38,866 nt of DNA from a virus, in IMG/VR virus record IMGVR_UViG_3300046323_000652, positions 1 to 38,866 of that record. The stretch is one strand, 5' to 3'. Below are positions 3,972-38,027 of this stretch, piece after piece; position 1 is the first letter of the stretch, and the number at the start of each line of letters is the position of its first letter. Both the position numbers and the translations under genes were made by a program. Under the pieces are notes generated by a model. That model was given only the letters and a program-made list of their open reading frames with translations, was not told the DNA's origin and ran no database searches.

Positions 3972-6110
3972 TTAAGTGTATTGAATAGAAACCGTTACCT
4001 CATTAGCACCGATATTCGTTGCATCTGTAAGACCTACTGCATTTGTAATTGCGTATGCTATACCCGTTGCAAACCTATCGCCAAAAGGAGCGGTATTTAT
4101 TGCCAAAGTTGTATTTGGTGGAATTGGTATGTATTTCACAACCAAAGCCGAATCTGTCGCAATTACGGGAGCAGATGCTTTATTGTAAATCCTGAAAAAC
4201 TTAAACGAAGCACTTAAATTACTAATCACCATTGAGTTAATAACACCTGCACTACCTTTTACCGAAACTAAGTTTGTATCAGCACTACTTAACCTTGCGT
4301 GTGATGTACTCGAACCTTGCCCCGTTTGCGGAATAGGTGTGATGTTTTGGTTTGCAGAGATGTTTGCCGTAATCGTTCCCGAAACAGTAGCGTTTAAGTT
4401 CCCTGCTGTTGCTTGCTGAATATTGAATTGATTTGGTATGTGCGAAGCCTGATTCAAAACAGCATAAGGTCTGACATTCGCAGAACCCGAAGTCATATTC
4501 ACCCTCAAATAATTAGCACCCTGCAAATTCATCAAGAATGTGCGTGTTGTATTTGTAGGAGTTATTGCAGCGTTGATTGGGTTCGCATTTTGAACGTCTT
4601 TTTCAAAGAGTTGAAGTGTCTTAACCCCAATTGTGAAAGCAGAATCAAAAGCAACTTGCACTGTATAAGAACCCGTTGTAGCAGTAGAAACGACAATTAG
4701 CTCACCACTTTGATAATCTCTTACGTCTGTCGCAATACCTGTGCCTGCACTATCTAATAAGTTCGTATTGGTAGATGCAACCGAAAGAAAGCCTGTAATG
4801 CTTAGTTTTCTTGGTAATGCAACCCCCAAAGAAGTAGCTAAGAATTGCCCTGCAACTTGAAATTTGCCTAACAGCCTTTTGAATAAGGCAATAAAACTAA
4901 ATGTACCTGAATCGGCTGTTGCAGGTGTATTTCCTTGCAAACCTATTACGGTGTTCAAGTTTGTTACTTGCGCAATTTCATCATTCTGTTTTTCCTCCGT
5001 TGCCGGTGAAGGAATTATTTTGGCTAAGATGTTTTCTAAAGCTGTCTTTGCAAGTAATTGCGTAGCTTCTAAATTGAAGCCTGAAATTTGGTTTGTAACG
5101 CCAACATTGCCACTGATATTCTGTGTTGGATTAGCGTTCAAATGTGATGCTGTTGGTGCGCTTATCGTTGTTTGTTGGGTTCTATTGAACCAAATCTGTG
5201 CAAGATTGACAAAAGGTGAAGCTGTTACATCAATAATATCCACCCTTGAAACAATATCGTTTGTGTTATATCCTGTTCCGTTTGTATTAGCAACAAAATT
5301 AGCCTCAATAACTTCTCTGTCTTTTTCTAATCCTGCAAGCCTTATGTTTCCTATTGGTGTATATGTCGTACCGTTTGGCAAGATATACGCATAAGTAATT
5401 AAACCTGAATCTTGGTTTACAATTGCCTGCCTAACAAAATACACATTATTGTCATCTGTCCATACTGTTTCGGACAATGAAATATCATCTCTTAATTCTG
5501 ATAAAATAGAGTTAAGTGCTGTTATTGTATCATTTTGCTTCGCTTCCGTTGCCGGTGAAGGAATAATTTTAGCTTGTATATTGTCTAAAACTGTTTTGAT
5601 TTGGGAAAGAGTTGAATCAGTTGCAAATCCACTGATTTGATTCGAAACTTGGACAGGTTGCGTATCCGTAAGTTTTGCAAGGAAATTAACAGCAGTAAGC
5701 AAATCATTCAAGGTTGTTTGTGTAGCAAAACCTGAAATTTGATTCGCAACATTTACGGGTTGTGTTTGTAATAAATTCGCTTTCCTTTGCAGTTCTGTAA
5801 GCAACTGTCCAAGTGTTACGTCAAGAGCCAATCCATTTGGAAAATTAGAAATTCCAATTTGTTGGTTCGCATCAAGTTCTGCTTTTACTGGTATTTTTCC
5901 ACCAACCAAAGCAGGGATTCTGTTTAGTAAGGCTGTAAAATATCCTAACAATCTTTTGAAAAAAGACACAATAGAAAACGTACCCGAATCACTTGTAGCT
6001 TCTACATCTGACTTTTGCCCAACGACTTCAATCAGTTCGTTTTGCTCTGCTTCATCTGGTACATACACAGTTTGTATGACACCGTTTGCATCTTTGATAT
6101 TTATCTCCAT
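3972..6110 (-). CDS. Long tail fibre / baseplate protein with duplicated modules
   Basis: The 712-residue protein is built from repeated segments. DSGTFS...FKRLLG occurs near residues 42-55 and again near 395-410. QISGFAT occurs several times after V(N/S)NQ, and AKIIPSPATE.KQND occurs twice. The (P/L)ATE.KQ(N/D)D motif is frequent in phage tail fibres. The C-terminal third is strand-rich and looks like a distal tip. Internal duplication at DNA level is visible (about 4997 and 5546 share a long identical stretch). It lies among the tail-fibre genes at the end of the late operon and probably links the tail to the receptor-binding protein encoded downstream. Confidence 0.6.
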   Translation of the reverse strand: MEINIKDANGVIQTVYVPDEAEQNELIEVVGQKSDVEATSDSGTFSIVSFFKRLLGYFTALLNRIPALVGGKIPVKAELDANQQIGISNFPNGLALDVTLGQLLTELQRKANLLQTQPVNVANQISGFATQTTLNDLLTAVNFLAKLTDTQPVQVSNQISGFATDSTLSQIKTVLDNIQAKIIPSPATEAKQNDTITALNSILSELRDDISLSETVWTDDNNVYFVRQAIVNQDSGLITYAYILPNGTTYTPIGNIRLAGLEKDREVIEANFVANTNGTGYNTNDIVSRVDIIDVTASPFVNLAQIWFNRTQQTTISAPTASHLNANPTQNISGNVGVTNQISGFNLEATQLLAKTALENILAKIIPSPATEEKQNDEIAQVTNLNTVIGLQGNTPATADSGTFSFIALFKRLLGKFQVAGQFLATSLGVALPRKLSITGFLSVASTNTNLLDSAGTGIATDVRDYQSGELIVVSTATTGSYTVQVAFDSAFTIGVKTLQLFEKDVQNANPINAAITPTNTTRTFLMNLQGANYLRVNMTSGSANVRPYAVLNQASHIPNQFNIQQATAGNLNATVSGTITANISANQNITPIPQTGQGSSTSHARLSSADTNLVSVKGSAGVINSMVISNLSASFKFFRIYNKASAPVIATDSALVVKYIPIPPNTTLAINTAPFGDRFATGIAYAITNAVGLTDATNIGANEVTVSIQYT

Positions 6111-32157: not shown

Positions 32158-32574
32158 TTAAAATAGGTTTAATTGTATTCTTTGTAATTTTTTTCCAAAT
32201 TTTCTACGATTCCAGTTGTCTGTTTTATCATAATCCAAATGGCATTTTTGACATAAGGCTTTCAGATTAGAATAATCATTGTTTTCAATATCGTGGTCAA
32301 GATGGGCTATCGTAAGCACAATCTTTATAGCCTTTTTGATTAATCCATTTTTTAGGCGGTTATTTTTTAATTCAAAATCAAAAAAATCATATCCTTTTCT
32401 TTCCAATTCATCTTCAATATGACTCCATTGATAGAATTTACCGTTTGAATCTCTGTATCCAACAGAATAATTGGCTAATCCGCAATTTTCGCATTTGTGT
32501 TCAGCTCTTTCGAGTACCGATGGGCGAATCTCTGTAAGCCAATTTTTTGCATAATCTTTATAATTGATTGGCAT
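32158..32574 (-). CDS. HNH endonuclease
   Basis: A 138-residue protein. CENC (Cys28, Cys31) and CQKCH (Cys108, Cys111) make a zinc-binding pair, and LTIAHLDHDIENNDYSNL carries the HNH centre with His91, Asp93, His94 and Asn103. It is a complete small HNH nuclease of the phage type. It sits next to the PD-(D/E)XK nuclease gene, giving two nucleases in tandem within the early operon. Target and role are unknown; both replication processing and homing are possible. Confidence 0.7.
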   Translation of the reverse strand: MPINYKDYAKNWLTEIRPSVLERAEHKCENCGLANYSVGYRDSNGKFYQWSHIEDELERKGYDFFDFELKNNRLKNGLIKKAIKIVLTIAHLDHDIENNDYSNLKALCQKCHLDYDKTDNWNRRKFGKKLQRIQLNLF

Positions 32575-32575
32575 A

Positions 32576-33214
32576 TTATTTTGATTTTAAGAACTCTTCT
32601 TCAAATTTTCGTAACTGTTCCTTTTTCTTTTGCTCAAAATCGGAGATGCTTTGGGCATCGGGTTCTACTGCTTGCATATTGACAAGTACCCGCTTCAATT
32701 TGGCTTTCTTTGACTGCTTCTCTATGTCGTTGAGCAACTTAGCGTTGTGTTGGGCGTGTTCGTAGAGTGCTTGCGCAGGAAGTTCGGAAGCCTCAATCAA
32801 TTGTTTTTTGTTGGTATGGGCAGTTACGAACAGGCACCGCTCATGGTCGTTGTAATGCTGAAACCAACCAAGCACAGTTTCCAAATCAAAGGTCTGATGG
32901 GTGAATTGCTGAGGGTTTTTGTACTTTCCGATTACACCATTTCTCAAGACTAAACAAATCTCCTCATACGTGAGAAACCAATAATTTTGAATCAACTCGT
33001 TTGCTATTTCAGGAATCACAAAATCAAGTGCAGCATTATTTTGGCTCATCAGCGAAGCAAAATAAGTGCAAGTAATTTCAAGGGTATCAAGCAAATCCGC
33101 TTCATCTTGCTTTCTGAGTAATGAAACTTGCTTTCGGTCTGGGGAATCTAACTGGACAGCACTTGCAACATCCAACTTCCTGACAATCTGCTTAAATTCT
33201 TGCAGATTAGTCAT
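32576..33214 (-). CDS. Hypothetical early protein, replication-neighbourhood
   Basis: About 212 residues from the ATG at 33212-33214 (another at 33221-33223), overlapping the end of the replication gene by 8 nt. Longer upstream reading would sit inside that gene. YWFLTYEEICLVLRNGVIGKYKNPQQFTHQTF resembles a segment I recall from Bacteroidota phage proteins downstream of replication initiators. The C-terminal third is a basic coiled coil. Its function is unknown; a replication accessory role is inferred from context. Confidence 0.5.
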   Translation of the reverse strand: MTNLQEFKQIVRKLDVASAVQLDSPDRKQVSLLRKQDEADLLDTLEITCTYFASLMSQNNAALDFVIPEIANELIQNYWFLTYEEICLVLRNGVIGKYKNPQQFTHQTFDLETVLGWFQHYNDHERCLFVTAHTNKKQLIEASELPAQALYEHAQHNAKLLNDIEKQSKKAKLKRVLVNMQAVEPDAQSISDFEQKKKEQLRKFEEEFLKSK

Positions 33215-34070
33215 TATGACCATTTTCAGATTGCTTCCTTGCCTGCATTCTTGCAAGGCGTTCTTGGACGAAGCTGTTTGCATCAAAATTTGATTTTCCA
33301 TTTTTTGAAACATTTTTAGTTAAAAATTTATCTGTTTTTTCCTTGATGCACCATTTTTTAGCGGTTACAAGCCAATCAAGATACATCAACCCTTTTTCAG
33401 AAGAAGTTAGTTTTAGCTCTTCGTGAATTACTCTTGCAGAATAGCAAGCATACAACTCGTCTTTTTCAAATTCTACCCTAAACACCTCAAAGTCATAATA
33501 TTTTGAATCTTTGAAATAGTGTTTTAAATTAGTAGTGTCCTCTTTTGGGTACACTGCTTTAGTGTTTGTGCTGCTTTGCCCATTAAAAGTGTATTTTTTC
33601 GACTTTACAAAATCCTCTTTTTGCTGTTGCTGCGCATCATCAACATTGGTAAGTTGTATAGTTGTATAGTTGAGTGTATCGTCTACCTCAGTGTCTACCT
33701 CAGTGTCTACCTCAGTGTCCTCTTTTGGGTACGCTTCTTTTTTGTTAGTGTCCTCTTTTGGGTACACTGCTTTTTCATTTTCGTATAGAGGGGTAAGGTA
33801 AAACACACATTTTTTCAATGAGTTTATCCCATCATCTATCTTTATCAATCCTGCTTCTACCAAATCATTACGACTTGCATAGTAAGCCTTTTTTGAGAAC
33901 CCGCAATCCTTTAGAATATCCTCTCTGTATATTGAAACTTGCCACTTATTAAAAGTATTCGCATAATCGCACAGAGAAAGATAAAGCAATCGTGCCGATG
34001 ACCTTACGTCAGGCTTTTCTTTGATTACTTTCCAAAATGCTTTCATTTGACGCGGGTAATTAAAATTCAT
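33207..34070 (-). CDS. DnaD-like / winged-helix replication initiator (putative)
   Basis: A 287-residue protein. Residues 1-95 (MKAFWKVIKEKPDVRSSARLLYLSLCDYANTFN ... FSKKAYYASRNDLVEAGLIKI) form a winged-helix region typical of phage replication initiators. Residues 100-160 are a low-complexity repeat part with AVYPKEDT, EAYPKEDT and TEVDTEVDTEVD. The C-terminal half is helical and ends in a Lys/Arg/Asn tail. The repeat codons lie over iteron-like DNA repeats (33537-33765), as in lambda O. It sits between the exonuclease and the hypothetical gene. The DnaD family match was not tested. Confidence 0.6.
   Translation of the reverse strand: MNFNYPRQMKAFWKVIKEKPDVRSSARLLYLSLCDYANTFNKWQVSIYREDILKDCGFSKKAYYASRNDLVEAGLIKIDDGINSLKKCVFYLTPLYENEKAVYPKEDTNKKEAYPKEDTEVDTEVDTEVDDTLNYTTIQLTNVDDAQQQQKEDFVKSKKYTFNGQSSTNTKAVYPKEDTTNLKHYFKDSKYYDFEVFRVEFEKDELYACYSARVIHEELKLTSSEKGLMYLDWLVTAKKWCIKEKTDKFLTKNVSKNGKSNFDANSFVQERLARMQARKQSENGHND
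33537..33765. repeat. Iteron-like repeats, replication-origin candidate inside the initiator gene
   Basis: GTCCTCTTTTGGGTAC occurs exactly three times (33537-33552, 33717-33732, 33750-33765). GTCTACCTCAGT occurs three times in tandem (33681-33692, 33693-33704, 33705-33716). The 12-bp tandem feeds directly into the second 16-bp copy. All lie within the gene of a likely replication initiator, the location used by lambda-type origins. They also encode YPKEDT and TEVD repeats, so a protein-level explanation is possible. Confidence 0.5.
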
Positions 34071-34095
34071 TTTTTTTCAAACTTTTTAAAATTTG

Positions 34096-34170
34096 GCATT
34101 ACGCCTCAACTGGATATTACATCCTATTGCAGTGCATTACGCTACTGCGGTTTATCAGCATTACGCTGAT
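34096..34170 (-). repeat. Cluster of four short hairpins with the same GTAAT (minus-strand) pentaloop
   Basis: Four hairpins lie within 75 bp: GGC-ATTAC-GCC (about 34095-34106), GGAT-ATTAC-ATCC (34112-34124), GC-ATTAC-GC inside GCAGT...ACTGC (about 34130-34149) and ATCAGC-ATTAC-GCTGAT (34154-34170). GCATTACGC recurs at 34096, 34134 and 34158. On the minus-strand mRNA each loop reads GTAAT. They lie between the exonuclease stop and the initiator start; the rightmost includes the exonuclease stop. Confidence 0.65.
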
Positions 34171-34754
34171 TGCATTGCCCGATACTTGTCAAGTAAATCG
34201 AGGTACTTCTGCTTACCAGATATATACAGCGATGAATCTTTCTTGACCAAGAATTTGAAAATCGGGTGTTTTTTGCGGATAGTTTTCTTGCTTACGCCTA
34301 CTATCAGCATTTGAGGGACTTCGGCAAGGTCGATATACCATGCACACTGCCTGTCATAGTCATATTTTAAAATTGATTGCTGAAAGGCAAGTGCATTGGT
34401 AGCAGAAGTGGATTTCAACTCCAAGCCCATAAAGCCCTGTATCCATCTGTCCAACTTGCCTTTGCATTGAAAGCCTAACATTTCACGATAGAATTCTTTT
34501 TCATTGATACCCGACTTATGTGCCAAGACGCTTCTTACAAGCGAATCTTCCAGCAGACATTCTTTCATTGCATCAGCAATGAGTAAATCCTTATGATTTA
34601 AGTCTGCCTTTTCAGGCTCAAGCACAAGGGCGTGAAAAAGACTACCAAACTCGAACACCTCTTCCAAGTCTTGTTCAGGCTCTCCATTAATGATTCGCTT
34701 GACTTCGGTCAAGTATGAGTTAGAAATATTCGAGTGTTGGTAGTAGTCTATCAT
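34161..34754 (-). CDS. RecB-family PD-(D/E)XK exonuclease (RecE/DUF3799-like)
   Basis: A 197-residue protein. FGSLFHALVLEPE (36-47) gives the G-x-x-x-H motif, CKGKLDRW (97-104) Asp102, LELKSTSA (111-118) Glu112 and Lys114, and DRQCAWY (134-140) the QxxxY motif of RecB-type nucleases. This order is that of RecE and of phage DUF3799 exonucleases, which degrade double-stranded DNA to make single strands for annealing. The TAA stop lies in a hairpin loop of the 34096-34170 repeat cluster. It overlaps the upstream gene by ATGA. A phage recombination module is likely. Confidence 0.75.
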   Translation of the reverse strand: MIDYYQHSNISNSYLTEVKRIINGEPEQDLEEVFEFGSLFHALVLEPEKADLNHKDLLIADAMKECLLEDSLVRSVLAHKSGINEKEFYREMLGFQCKGKLDRWIQGFMGLELKSTSATNALAFQQSILKYDYDRQCAWYIDLAEVPQMLIVGVSKKTIRKKHPIFKFLVKKDSSLYISGKQKYLDLLDKYRAMQSA

Positions 34755-35569
34755 TTAGCGATTGCTTTTAAATTTTCTTCATAAATCACCCCATCAATAG
34801 GAGGGCATCCGTTTTTTTCAGCGTGTTTTAGGAGAAAATCTAATTTAGACCAATCTCCTTTGCCTTTCCCCATGTAGAAAGCGAGCAGCTTGATATAGGC
34901 TTGCACCGGGTTTCCTGTTATTTGGGCAGTGTAAGATTTCCTAACATTTTTAAGGGCAGGATTTTCGGCTTGTAGTTCCTGTTCTTTCACTTGTGCCAAT
35001 AGCTGAACATTGAGTTTTTCGGCTTCCCAAGCATCTTCCAACCCTTCCTTAGCTTTCCATTTCTCCATTGCTTGGAGTTGGGCTTCGGTTTCTTTTCGGA
35101 TGCGTTCCTGTTCTGCTTTGCGTTCTGCTTCTACCTTCTTTGCGAAGTTATTGCGAGACTTGGTAACTGCGTCAATGTTTTGATTCAACCCTTCTACAAG
35201 TCTTTTGCAAAAACTGTCAATCGTTGCTTTTGCATCAAGTATAGGTCCTGTGATGCTTTTTCTTGAATTGTCTACTTCTCCAACTAATTTCTTTGCAAGA
35301 TTCAGAGACTTGCCCGAATCCTCGAAGTCTTCAGTACATAGAATTGCAGAATACTGAGATAAACCAAGTTCTATAGTAGTGATTGCGTCATAGAACTCTA
35401 CAAATATTTTTCTTAAAGTATCAGCATCAGCAAGCTTGTTCAATTCGAGTACCTCTACCGGGCGCAATGCGGGTAGGTTTACCTCAGCCTTTGCAGGCTT
35501 GAGGTTTCCATTGAGGGCATCTCCAATCAATGCCCTCATAGAATCATCTAATTTTTTTTCTATCAACAT
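34751..35569 (-). CDS. Coiled-coil protein in the recombination module
   Basis: A 272-residue protein. The centre is a strongly charged helix (FAKKVEAERKAEQERIRKETEAQLQAMEKW). The end (VRKSYTAQITGNPVQAYIKLLAFYMGKGKGDWSKLDFLLKHAEKNGCPPIDGVIYEENL) forms a compact alpha/beta domain in a layout I associate with DUF1351-type phage proteins. It precedes the exonuclease with an ATGA overlap. Candidate roles are exonuclease partner, host-nuclease inhibitor (Gam-like) or ssDNA-annealing protein; none is proven by motifs. Confidence 0.5.
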   Translation of the reverse strand: MLIEKKLDDSMRALIGDALNGNLKPAKAEVNLPALRPVEVLELNKLADADTLRKIFVEFYDAITTIELGLSQYSAILCTEDFEDSGKSLNLAKKLVGEVDNSRKSITGPILDAKATIDSFCKRLVEGLNQNIDAVTKSRNNFAKKVEAERKAEQERIRKETEAQLQAMEKWKAKEGLEDAWEAEKLNVQLLAQVKEQELQAENPALKNVRKSYTAQITGNPVQAYIKLLAFYMGKGKGDWSKLDFLLKHAEKNGCPPIDGVIYEENLKAIAK

Positions 35570-36126
35570 TATTCTGCGATGGTGATTTTGAAACGGTCAG
35601 ATGAAAACTCATTTTTCTTGTTTTTCTCATTGCCTTTGTATTCTATCCAAAAAGCAACGCCTTCGAGTGTTCCACCCTGCTCACGAATCATTTTTTCAAT
35701 CTCGATAAATTTGCCTACGATGATTGCTTGACCCATGTCAATCATTTTGTCGGAGTATGAATCGTAGAACCGAACTACTTTTGAAATCTTCACTTCGCCT
35801 GTTTTCTCGTCCACACCTTCGCGGTCGGAGAAACACATAAAGTTGAGCCTTCTTTTGAAATCTCTCACTTTCTCGAATACTTCTTTGGCTTCTTTCGATT
35901 CGGGTGCGAGTTCTCTTAGTTTGTCGGATAGCTCCGATACGATGTTTTCATTTTTGATGAAGTCCTTTTTCTTGTCATCAAATGACCAATACTCAGTCAT
36001 CAAGTCAATGTTTTGAGGAGCTTGCAAAAATTCTTCAATCGCTTGCGAAGGCTTCAATTTATCTGCTTCCTTGCGTCGGTAAATTGAAAAAGATGTTTCT
36101 TGTTTTACTAAATCCGTTGTTTCCAT
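35569..36126 (-). CDS. Recombination-module protein, unknown
   Basis: A 185-residue protein. Residues 20-90 are helical and acidic (LKPSQAIEEFLQAPQNIDLM). Residues 120-185 alternate strands (KVVRFYDSYSDKMIDMGQAI, GVAFWIEYKGNEK, DRFKITIAE) as in small OB- or beta-barrel proteins. Its TAA overlaps the next start by one base. Together with the 272-residue protein it forms a recombination cassette with the exonuclease. An SSB or annealing role is possible but not shown. Confidence 0.45.
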   Translation of the reverse strand: METTDLVKQETSFSIYRRKEADKLKPSQAIEEFLQAPQNIDLMTEYWSFDDKKKDFIKNENIVSELSDKLRELAPESKEAKEVFEKVRDFKRRLNFMCFSDREGVDEKTGEVKISKVVRFYDSYSDKMIDMGQAIIVGKFIEIEKMIREQGGTLEGVAFWIEYKGNEKNKKNEFSSDRFKITIAE

Positions 36127-36152
36127 AAAAAATAAATAAATTTTGTTTTGTT

Positions 36153-36202
36153 AAAAAAAATGCAGGTTTACTTGTACTTTCAACCTTTTCCGCTTGACCT
36201 GC
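36153..36202 (-). terminator. Possible terminator or processing hairpin downstream of the tRNA-like element
   Basis: On the minus strand GCAGGT (36202-36197) pairs with ACCTGC (36167-36162) across about 29 nt, followed by an A and eight T residues. Stem and U-tract would be suitable for an intrinsic terminator, but the loop is long. It lies between the tRNA-like element and the 185-residue gene. Confidence 0.35.
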
Positions 36203-36220
36203 GTGCGGTAGGATTTTTCG

Positions 36221-36331
36221 AGATGCAGGCAGGATTCGAACCTGCAAACAGTGTTACTATGGTTTTCTTTCCATTCCTTCACACTAAGGGTATTATCTTA
36301 TCCCCGACTTTACCAATTTGTCCACTGCACC
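36221..36331 (-). tRNA. tRNA-like element with large variable region; anticodon unclear (possibly degenerate)
   Basis: Read on the minus strand: acceptor strand GGTGCAG pairs with CTGCATC (one G-U pair). The D-arm has GAC/GTC with a loop containing TTGG. The T-arm is perfect (GCAGG-TTCGAAT-CCTGC). The anticodon arm is poor: GGGAT...TACCC pairs only at three positions, and no T33 precedes a clear anticodon. After it, about 41 nt form a two-part hairpin (AGTGT...ACACT around ATGG...CCAT). The total of 111 nt exceeds class II tRNAs. No CCA is encoded. It could be a degenerate phage tRNA or a tRNA mimic. The bases from 36127 to 36220 hold no gene. Confidence 0.55.
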
Positions 36332-36382
36332 TTATAAAAAAAGGCAAATCACCCGCAATACTGGTAAAATGCCTACGACACG

Positions 36383-36904
36383 TTAATCGTGATAATATGC
36401 AAACACTTGTCCTTCAATGTTATCCAATTCCTCACTTGTGAGTACACTCATGAGTGATACGCCTCTGAATTTTACATCAACGATTTGAATTTCGTCTGCT
36501 TCGTCTTCATCTGCGGGCAAATCCCAAGTTCCTTTGAAGGTTGATTTTCTGCCTTTCCTTTCGTGGTATTCTACAAACAAGTCCGAAATATTATCTAAAT
36601 CTGCGGTGCAAGTTCCTGTGTATTTTTTCTCTTTTTTTACAATTGGCTGCCCTGAAAGGAAGCTGATTACACCAAGAACGTTTTGGTTGGTTACAGTGCG
36701 GTCAATCGGGTAAGCGAGTGCCATTGATTTGAGGCGAAACGTGCCATCACTGTTTTGCTCAATGGAACATCCCCAGTATGGGTTTGGACTGCCTTCAAAT
36801 TTTACTTCTATCGTTCCATCAATAAAAGAAGTATTAAGATTGTATGCTTGCAGTTGGTCATACATTTGCATTATTCCTGATTTTAATACGATTGTCTTAT
36901 TCAT
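36383..36904 (-). CDS. Hypothetical early protein
   Basis: A 173-residue strand-rich protein: SFIDGTIEVKFEGSPNPYWGCSIEQ, then YTGTCTADLDNISDLFVEYHERKGRKS and an acidic linker (LPADEDEADEIQIV) before VDVKFRGVSLMSV. No motif or family is recognised. It is the third gene of the leftward early operon. Confidence 0.45.
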   Translation of the reverse strand: MNKTIVLKSGIMQMYDQLQAYNLNTSFIDGTIEVKFEGSPNPYWGCSIEQNSDGTFRLKSMALAYPIDRTVTNQNVLGVISFLSGQPIVKKEKKYTGTCTADLDNISDLFVEYHERKGRKSTFKGTWDLPADEDEADEIQIVDVKFRGVSLMSVLTSEELDNIEGQVFAYYHD

Positions 36905-36908
36905 AATT

Positions 36909-37241
36909 TTAGATTTTATTGATTAGAAAGTTTACAGCTTCATTCATTGTGTCAAATACTGACAACTTAAATTCATTTTTTGATACTTGGAATTTCCCAT
37001 TACCCAACTCATCTATGAAATATCCGTTTTCGGTAGAAACTACTGTTTTGGCAATTTCCCAATTCTTTGCCTCAGTTATCTTTTTCATTGCGTACTCGAA
37101 TAAGTCATTTAATGTCCTATTTTCGTTTCTTGCCTCTACTCGGGCATCAATTACTTGCATCGCATCTCTCAAAAAGTCAACTGTTTTTATGGGATTGTCT
37201 TTCCCATATACTTTGTCTATAAATTCCGAAATCTCCAACAT
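36909..37241 (-). CDS. Hypothetical early protein
   Basis: A 110-residue alpha/beta protein with FLRDAMQVIDARVEARNENRTLNDLFEYAMKK and GNGKFQVSKNEFKLSVFDTMNEAVNFL. The last part resembles short DUF-type repeats with an E/N helix. It lies three bases from the next upstream gene. No function is recognised. Confidence 0.45.
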   Translation of the reverse strand: MLEISEFIDKVYGKDNPIKTVDFLRDAMQVIDARVEARNENRTLNDLFEYAMKKITEAKNWEIAKTVVSTENGYFIDELGNGKFQVSKNEFKLSVFDTMNEAVNFLINKI

Positions 37242-37243
37242 AT

Positions 37244-37576
37244 CTATACAAGTTTTAGGGTTACACCATCTATTGGGTTTATAGTCAATATTTCATCAAT
37301 TACAGCACTCCTAAATCCGTTGTCTGTGATGGAGAAGAATAATAAGGTGTTGCCTTTGATTCTTGCATTGCTTGCTGTTCTTTTGGTTATCTCGCCAGTG
37401 CTTACTTTCACAAATTCAATCTCAAAATAATTGCTCGCAATCGCCATGACACATTTGATGCTTTGCTTGATTTGTTTCCAAGCTCTTTTGATTGCATCTC
37501 CCCAACTTGCTTTTGTTTCTTTGATGATTGACCAAGCCGTTTTATTTACTTCTTGCATTACTTGTCTTTTGTTCAT
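37244..37576 (-). CDS. First gene of the early operon, small phage-type protein
   Basis: A 110-residue protein. The N-terminus (NKTAWSIIKETKASWGDAIKRAWKQIK) matches a frequent Bacteroidota phage motif in which Ala-Trp helices recur. The end is strand-rich (FEIEFVKVSTGEITKRTASNARIKGN). The start is about 34 bp downstream of a promoter with an operator-like repeat. Function is unknown. Confidence 0.55.
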   Translation of the reverse strand: MNKRQVMQEVNKTAWSIIKETKASWGDAIKRAWKQIKQSIKCVMAIASNYFEIEFVKVSTGEITKRTASNARIKGNTLLFFSITDNGFRSAVIDEILTINPIDGVTLKLV

Positions 37577-37616: not shown

Positions 37617-37646
37617 CAAAGCTAACAAAAGTTTGTTAATTAACAA
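37617..37646 (-). promoter_or_regulatory. Early-operon promoter, TTG-N19-TAGCTTTG
   Basis: On the minus strand TTG (37646-37644) and TAGCTTTG (37624-37617) are separated by exactly 19 bp, which fits the Bacteroidota promoter TTG-N19-TAnnTTTG. Transcription would begin near 37610, before the early operon start at 37576. The -33 part lies within a perfect 16-bp palindrome TTTGTTAATTAACAAA (37632-37647), suggesting repressor control. Confidence 0.75.
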
Positions 37647-37667
37647 AATAATCTAAGATATTTTTGT
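37633..37667. promoter_or_regulatory. Operator-like 35-bp repeat, copy 1
   Basis: This 35-bp block is repeated in the same orientation at 37993-38027 with three differences. It contains half of the palindrome at 37632-37647. The neighbouring TGTTAGTTTT (37665-37674) also occurs at 37930-37939 and inverted at 37978-37987. Repeated TTTTGTTAG-type half-sites across the immunity region fit a dimeric XRE repressor. Confidence 0.6.
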
Positions 37668-38006: not shown

Positions 38007-38027
38007 AATAATCTAATAAATTTTTGT
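37993..38027. promoter_or_regulatory. Operator-like 35-bp repeat, copy 2
   Basis: This block matches 37633-37667 at 32 of 35 bases and lies just before the repressor ATG (38029), covering the leftward -33 element. Binding here would repress the leftward promoter and could also regulate the repressor gene itself. Confidence 0.6.

Follow-up and report, generated by a model that had tools for sequence, protein, structure and literature searches.

The early operon of a temperate tailed phage carries four hairpins that present one identical loop on four different stems. They lie at 34095–34170 of the window, the whole 38,866-base stretch of DNA analysed here, which is an IMG/VR virus record of class linear. 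The loop reads ATTAC on the + strand and GUAAU in the leftward mRNA. A sequence-only reading had described four stem-loops with differing stems and an identical loop, and all four were located. Four differing self-complementary stems around one loop constitute covariation within a single array, which supports a fixed-loop hairpin under selection. We infer post-transcriptional control of the replication gene as the most plausible function. More specifically, and tentatively, we propose that the array serves as an RNA operator with four sites, which would control translation of the initiator and be bound by the initiator or by another protein.

The window encodes the gene set of a temperate tailed phage, comprising terminase, portal, head protease, integrase, a repressor-like HTH protein and a leftward early operon. 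Bacteroidota bacteria are probably its host group. The array occupies a 90-nt gap in this operon that runs from an exonuclease gene to an initiator-like gene, a boundary that is one of the few gaps within the operon. The exonuclease gene (34161–34754, − strand) encodes a 197-aa DUF3799 PDDEXK protein matching phrog_412 exonuclease VIII (3e-19). The gene that follows (33207–34070, − strand) encodes a 287-aa protein with matches to HTH_36 (8.4e-6) and to the phrog_270 replication initiation protein (3e-7). These domain scores are modest, and we describe the protein as resembling a replication initiator. Its AlphaFold model, run without an alignment, gave a pLDDT of 41.

The array is probably read as mRNA, because perfect − strand promoters lie upstream of it and none at 0–1 mismatch lies within it. 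A promoter at 37617–37647 (−), TTTG-N19-TAGCTTTG, is a perfect match to the Bacteroidota primary-sigma consensus (PMC7366714), and a second perfect match, TTTG-N19-TAnnTTTG, lies at 38007–37977 (−). Both sit in the immunity region and point leftward into the operon. Judged from sequence, the 37647 promoter is the probable driver of the early operon that holds the hairpins, and counted from it the array lies ~3.5 kb into the operon. On the − strand of the gap itself, no Bacteroidota promoter was found at 0–1 mismatch. The two perfect promoters both start with TTTGTTAATTA and possibly overlap repressor operators.

Each hairpin closes the same loop with a stem of its own. Hairpin A (34154–34170, −), AUCAGC[GUAAU]GCUGAU, comes first in transcript order and has 6 bp. 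The exonuclease stop codon UAA (34163–34161) falls within its loop, just as the sequence-only reading had noticed, and is overlapped there by an AUG. Hairpin B (34129–34148, −), GCAGU-A-GC[GUAAU]GC-ACUGC, has 7 bp and a bulged A two pairs under the loop. Hairpin C (34112–34124, −), GGAU[GUAAU]AUCC, has 4 bp, to which RNAfold adds a G-U pair that leaves a UAA triloop. Hairpin D (34095–34105, −), GGC[GUAAU]GCC, has 3 bp; 24 nt separate its end from the initiator ATG. From left to right, the corresponding + strand units are GGC[ATTAC]GCC, GGAT[ATTAC]ATCC, GCAGTGC[ATTAC]GC-T-ACTGC (with a bulged T for the bulged A of the − strand) and ATCAGC[ATTAC]GCTGAT. The two stems singled out at first, the 6-bp ATCAGC/GCTGAT and the 4-bp GGAT/ATCC, hold; the set as a whole is corrected to 3, 4, 7 (bulged) and 6 bp, with hairpins C and D weak alone (−1.9 and −2.5 kcal/mol as RNA).

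Directly 5' of the initiator start lies a weakly structured A/U-rich leader, AAAUUUUAAAAAGUUUGAAAAAAA (34071–34094, −). An in-frame stop codon within it, 7–9 nt ahead of the ATG, makes the array untranslated leader in the initiator frame. From loop to loop the distances are 18, 20 and 24 nt, an irregularity that suits packed hairpins better than DNA sites in helical phase. The 9-mer GCATTACGC is common to three of the four hairpins, within 71 bp; 0.22 copies would be expected in the window, which holds just these three. Past two positions around the loop, the arms share no sequence. A search for further GTAAT-loop hairpins had been suggested; across the whole window, no GTAAT/ATTAC hairpin with a stem of at least 4 bp was found outside the array, which is the sole such same-loop cluster there.

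The pairing of the stems exceeds what shuffled sequence produces. We scored clusters as the summed stem base pairs over same-loop hairpins within 80 nt, permitting one 1-nt bulge at a penalty of 1. The array reaches 19. In 150 whole-window dinucleotide shuffles the highest score was 14 for loops of 4–8 nt and 12 when only 5-nt loops were counted. When the flanks were shuffled around the four fixed ATTAC cores, 0 of 200,000 trials reached 19; with the three GCATTACGC 9-mers fixed as well, 2 of 200,000 did. The outer stem complementarity is thus not a by-product of the copied 9-mer. The array also leads a set of 254 sequences (2.63 Mb, mostly phages and prophages) when only clusters whose stems all differ are ranked. 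The other clusters scoring above 15, including those that score higher than the array, are tandem repeats with repeated stems.

Selection on RNA structure or on a loop-binding protein had been suggested from the conserved loop. The within-array covariation supports a hairpin with a conserved loop, but the stems cannot separate RNA from single-stranded DNA because they contain only Watson-Crick pairs. Single-strand folding gives z scores of −2.2 as RNA (− strand) and −3.5 as DNA (+ strand), and the RNA fold of the whole region includes competing long-range pairing.

As an RNA operator, the array would form part of the leftward transcript made early by a temperate Bacteroidota phage. A protein would recognise the GUAAU loop largely independently of stem sequence and, once bound to the array, would block ribosome entry at the A/U-rich leader. 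Initiator output would then fall as the protein accumulates. The candidate ligand is the initiator itself, which would make the control autogenous, or another phage or host RNA-binding protein. Four sites could yield a stepped or cooperative response, and ribosomes ending exonuclease translation may open hairpin A, which could couple both genes.

Several features point to this operator. Its stems compensate around a constant loop beyond what chance or duplication of the 9-mer delivers. The array is noncoding, given that loop A contains the exonuclease stop and that a stop closes the initiator frame ahead of the ATG, and the motif is limited to a single site in the window. Like a translational operator, the last hairpin stands in an untranslated leader near a start codon, 24 nt before the ATG. 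Against the operator stand the weakness of hairpins C and D, the regional RNA z score of only −2.2 beside a better value for + strand single-stranded DNA, the modest domain scores behind the initiator assignment, and the finding of a homologous array in no relative. One candidate ligand, the Bacteroides RNA-binding protein RbpB, was rejected: it is described as binding in single-stranded regions and as having a 41-nt primary sequence motif, and a search of the text that describes it met no reference to loops (PMC11697453). We also regard as unlikely the bolder proposal of a novel type of RNA operator with multiple sites in a double-stranded DNA phage, in which four tandem GUAAU hairpins with freely varying stems would titrate an RNA-binding initiator and so form a counted, cooperative switch.

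It is somewhat unlikely that the array acts at the DNA level instead. On this reading the palindromic sites, which adjoin an AT-rich stretch, would belong to an origin or serve as a transcriptional operator. The initiator or a host factor would bind them in duplex form, or else as hairpins that are extruded or become exposed on single-stranded DNA. The array does lie directly 5' of the initiator-like gene and an AT-rich run, three of its copies share the 9-bp core GCATTACGC, and its + strand folds well as DNA (z −3.5). It also resembles lambda-type origins, which likewise consist of four interrupted palindromes by an A-rich stretch near an initiator gene. Lambda origin iterons, however, have arms conserved in sequence and are located inside the gene, whereas the arms here differ beyond two positions and the centre alone is conserved. 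The asymmetry of the core, the irregular spacing (18, 20, 24) and the lack of a − strand promoter in the gap at 0–1 mismatch also speak against sites of this kind. Moreover, better iteron candidates lie in the interior of the initiator gene, where direct repeats at 33534–33783 (−) comprise a 37-nt unit in three copies (84–100% identity) and the 15-nt GTCTACCTCAGTGTC in three copies. By their sequence these are likely the iterons of the replication origin, and since the initiator gene has such iteron-like repeats of its own, a possible origin role for the array is not required. The same repeats encode repeated AVYPKEDT and EVDT peptides.

A ladder of termination and reinitiation is distinctly unlikely as the purpose of the loops. 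In such a ladder the overlapping stop and start in the loops (UAAUG in A, B and D) would couple the exonuclease to the initiator, with tiny open reading frames passing ribosomes on and setting initiator dose without a binding protein. An AUG overlaps the exonuclease stop UAA in loop A; a 14-codon frame (34161–34117) ends at the UAA of loop C; and a 10-codon frame from loop D (34099) ends in a UGA (34069–34067) that overlaps the initiator AUG as AUGA. But loop C reads UAAUA and misses a start, short open frames of this sort easily arise by chance, and the ladder leaves the differing yet paired stems around GUAAU unexplained.

We consider an RNA-stability or processing element improbable. Hairpins exactly between two cistrons of one early operon are well placed to shield the initiator mRNA from nucleases or expose it to them, so that the halves of the operon are separately controlled; elements of this type have no need of a single conserved loop, though, and two of the hairpins are very weak. 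Chance combined with local duplication, in which a palindrome-prone 9-mer was copied three times within 71 bp and the flanking complementarity is accidental, is very improbable, and local duplication of GCATTACGC as the whole explanation is rejected, given that 2 of 200,000 flank shuffles with the 9-mers fixed and 0 of 150 whole-window shuffles reach the score.

The RNA operator finds its nearest documented parallel in T4 and RB69. Phage replication proteins control their own translation through upstream RNA hairpins, and the DNA polymerase gp43 of these phages binds its own operator hairpin and represses its own translation; in T4 this hairpin carries the loop UAAC and precedes the start codon by ~40 nt (PMC3014915). 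Like the gp43 operator, the array presents UAA-containing loops upstream of a phage replication gene and is probably read as mRNA, and we offer the parallel as an analogy of how the array may work. The gp43 operator is a single hairpin before a polymerase gene, whereas the array has four hairpins before an HTH_36 initiator-like gene, its loop is GUAAU (UAA present, UAAC absent), and its ligand is putative.

Other known hairpins resemble the array in part. The sequence-only reading had likened it to boxB-type antitermination hairpins, a comparison that its loop and surroundings do not support. BoxB has a GNRNA-type loop, lies near a boxA and recruits N for antitermination. Lambda-type nut boxB, an RNA hairpin, has in common with the array its pentaloop and its place in the early operon of a phage, but the array loop is GUAAU, which ends in U, and occurs in four copies; no boxA-like GCTCTTTA was found at 0–1 mismatch from 32511 to 37482. 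The MS2 operator is a single hairpin with a four-nucleotide loop and a bulged A two pairs below it. MS2-type coat protein operators share with the array a stem-loop before or at a start codon, and their bulged A recurs in hairpin B; three of the four array hairpins are nevertheless unbulged, and the array comes from a double-stranded DNA phage. RNAs that bind CsrA/RsmA carry a GGA loop motif and, like the array, offer one loop motif to one protein on successive hairpins, but the array loops are GUAAU and not GGA. Rfam gave no gathering-level match in the window and one chance-level match near the site. No terminator-like site, in the form of a stable G+C-rich stem with a T run behind it, was found in the gap.

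A tRNA-like RNA of 111 nt lies elsewhere in the window, at 36331–36221 (−), within a 256-nt gap (36127–36382). Its minimum-energy fold is a cloverleaf with a 7-bp acceptor stem (GGUGCAG/CUGCAUC), a D-arm with UUGGUAAA and a canonical T-arm (GCAGG-UUCGAAU-CCUGC). The anticodon arm is degenerate (3 bp and a 12-nt loop), and the variable arm is oversized at ~40 nt. Neither ARAGORN in its default mode nor Rfam at threshold calls this RNA. A terminator-like GCAGG..CCTGC hairpin followed by eight T lies 3' of it.

Searches for relatives returned no second example of the array. No close relatives came up when the exonuclease, initiator and terminase served as queries, whether by blastn and tblastn against phages or by scanning contigs from IMG/VR and GTDB; some of these searches possibly left out records very near the window. 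Among 395 genomes of the phylum, searched with the initiator and the terminase, no homologous array was found. A comparable array is also absent from ~150 loci, chiefly Bacteroidota prophages and phages, that alignment-based scans identified by distant exonuclease homologues (about 26–36% identity); the loci examined closely have other genes 3' of the exonuclease. In the prophage with the best terminase match (45%), another gene follows the exonuclease and the array is missing. At a weak initiator match (L080), another gene runs into the initiator start and the array is absent there. Among the matches listed, IMG/VR pairs and triples of GCATTACGC, CGTAATG or GTAAT were pentapeptide-repeat genes, simple repeats, tandem direct repeats or chance. 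In an unrelated phage contig (L324, 8491–8625), a 45-bp direct repeat stands three times in tandem, and every copy holds the hairpin ACATC-GTAAT-GATGT; the stems are identical, so these repeats are a simple duplication. Noncoding runs of the palindrome AGCGTAATGCT occur in viral contigs of 42–116 kb (L037, 1–2373; L043, ~4706–4833; L052, ~1446–1573); they may adjoin tRNA sequence, and we set them aside as unrelated to the hairpin array.

To our knowledge, what is known of translational operators in phages comes mostly from a handful of models, T4 and the RNA phages among them, and little has been described of post-transcriptional control in Bacteroidota phages. If the array is an RNA operator, it would be a compact natural binding platform of four hairpins with a constant loop, and it would imply an RNA-binding protein not yet recognised. 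An operator of this kind would make the setting of initiator dose in these temperate phages directly testable.
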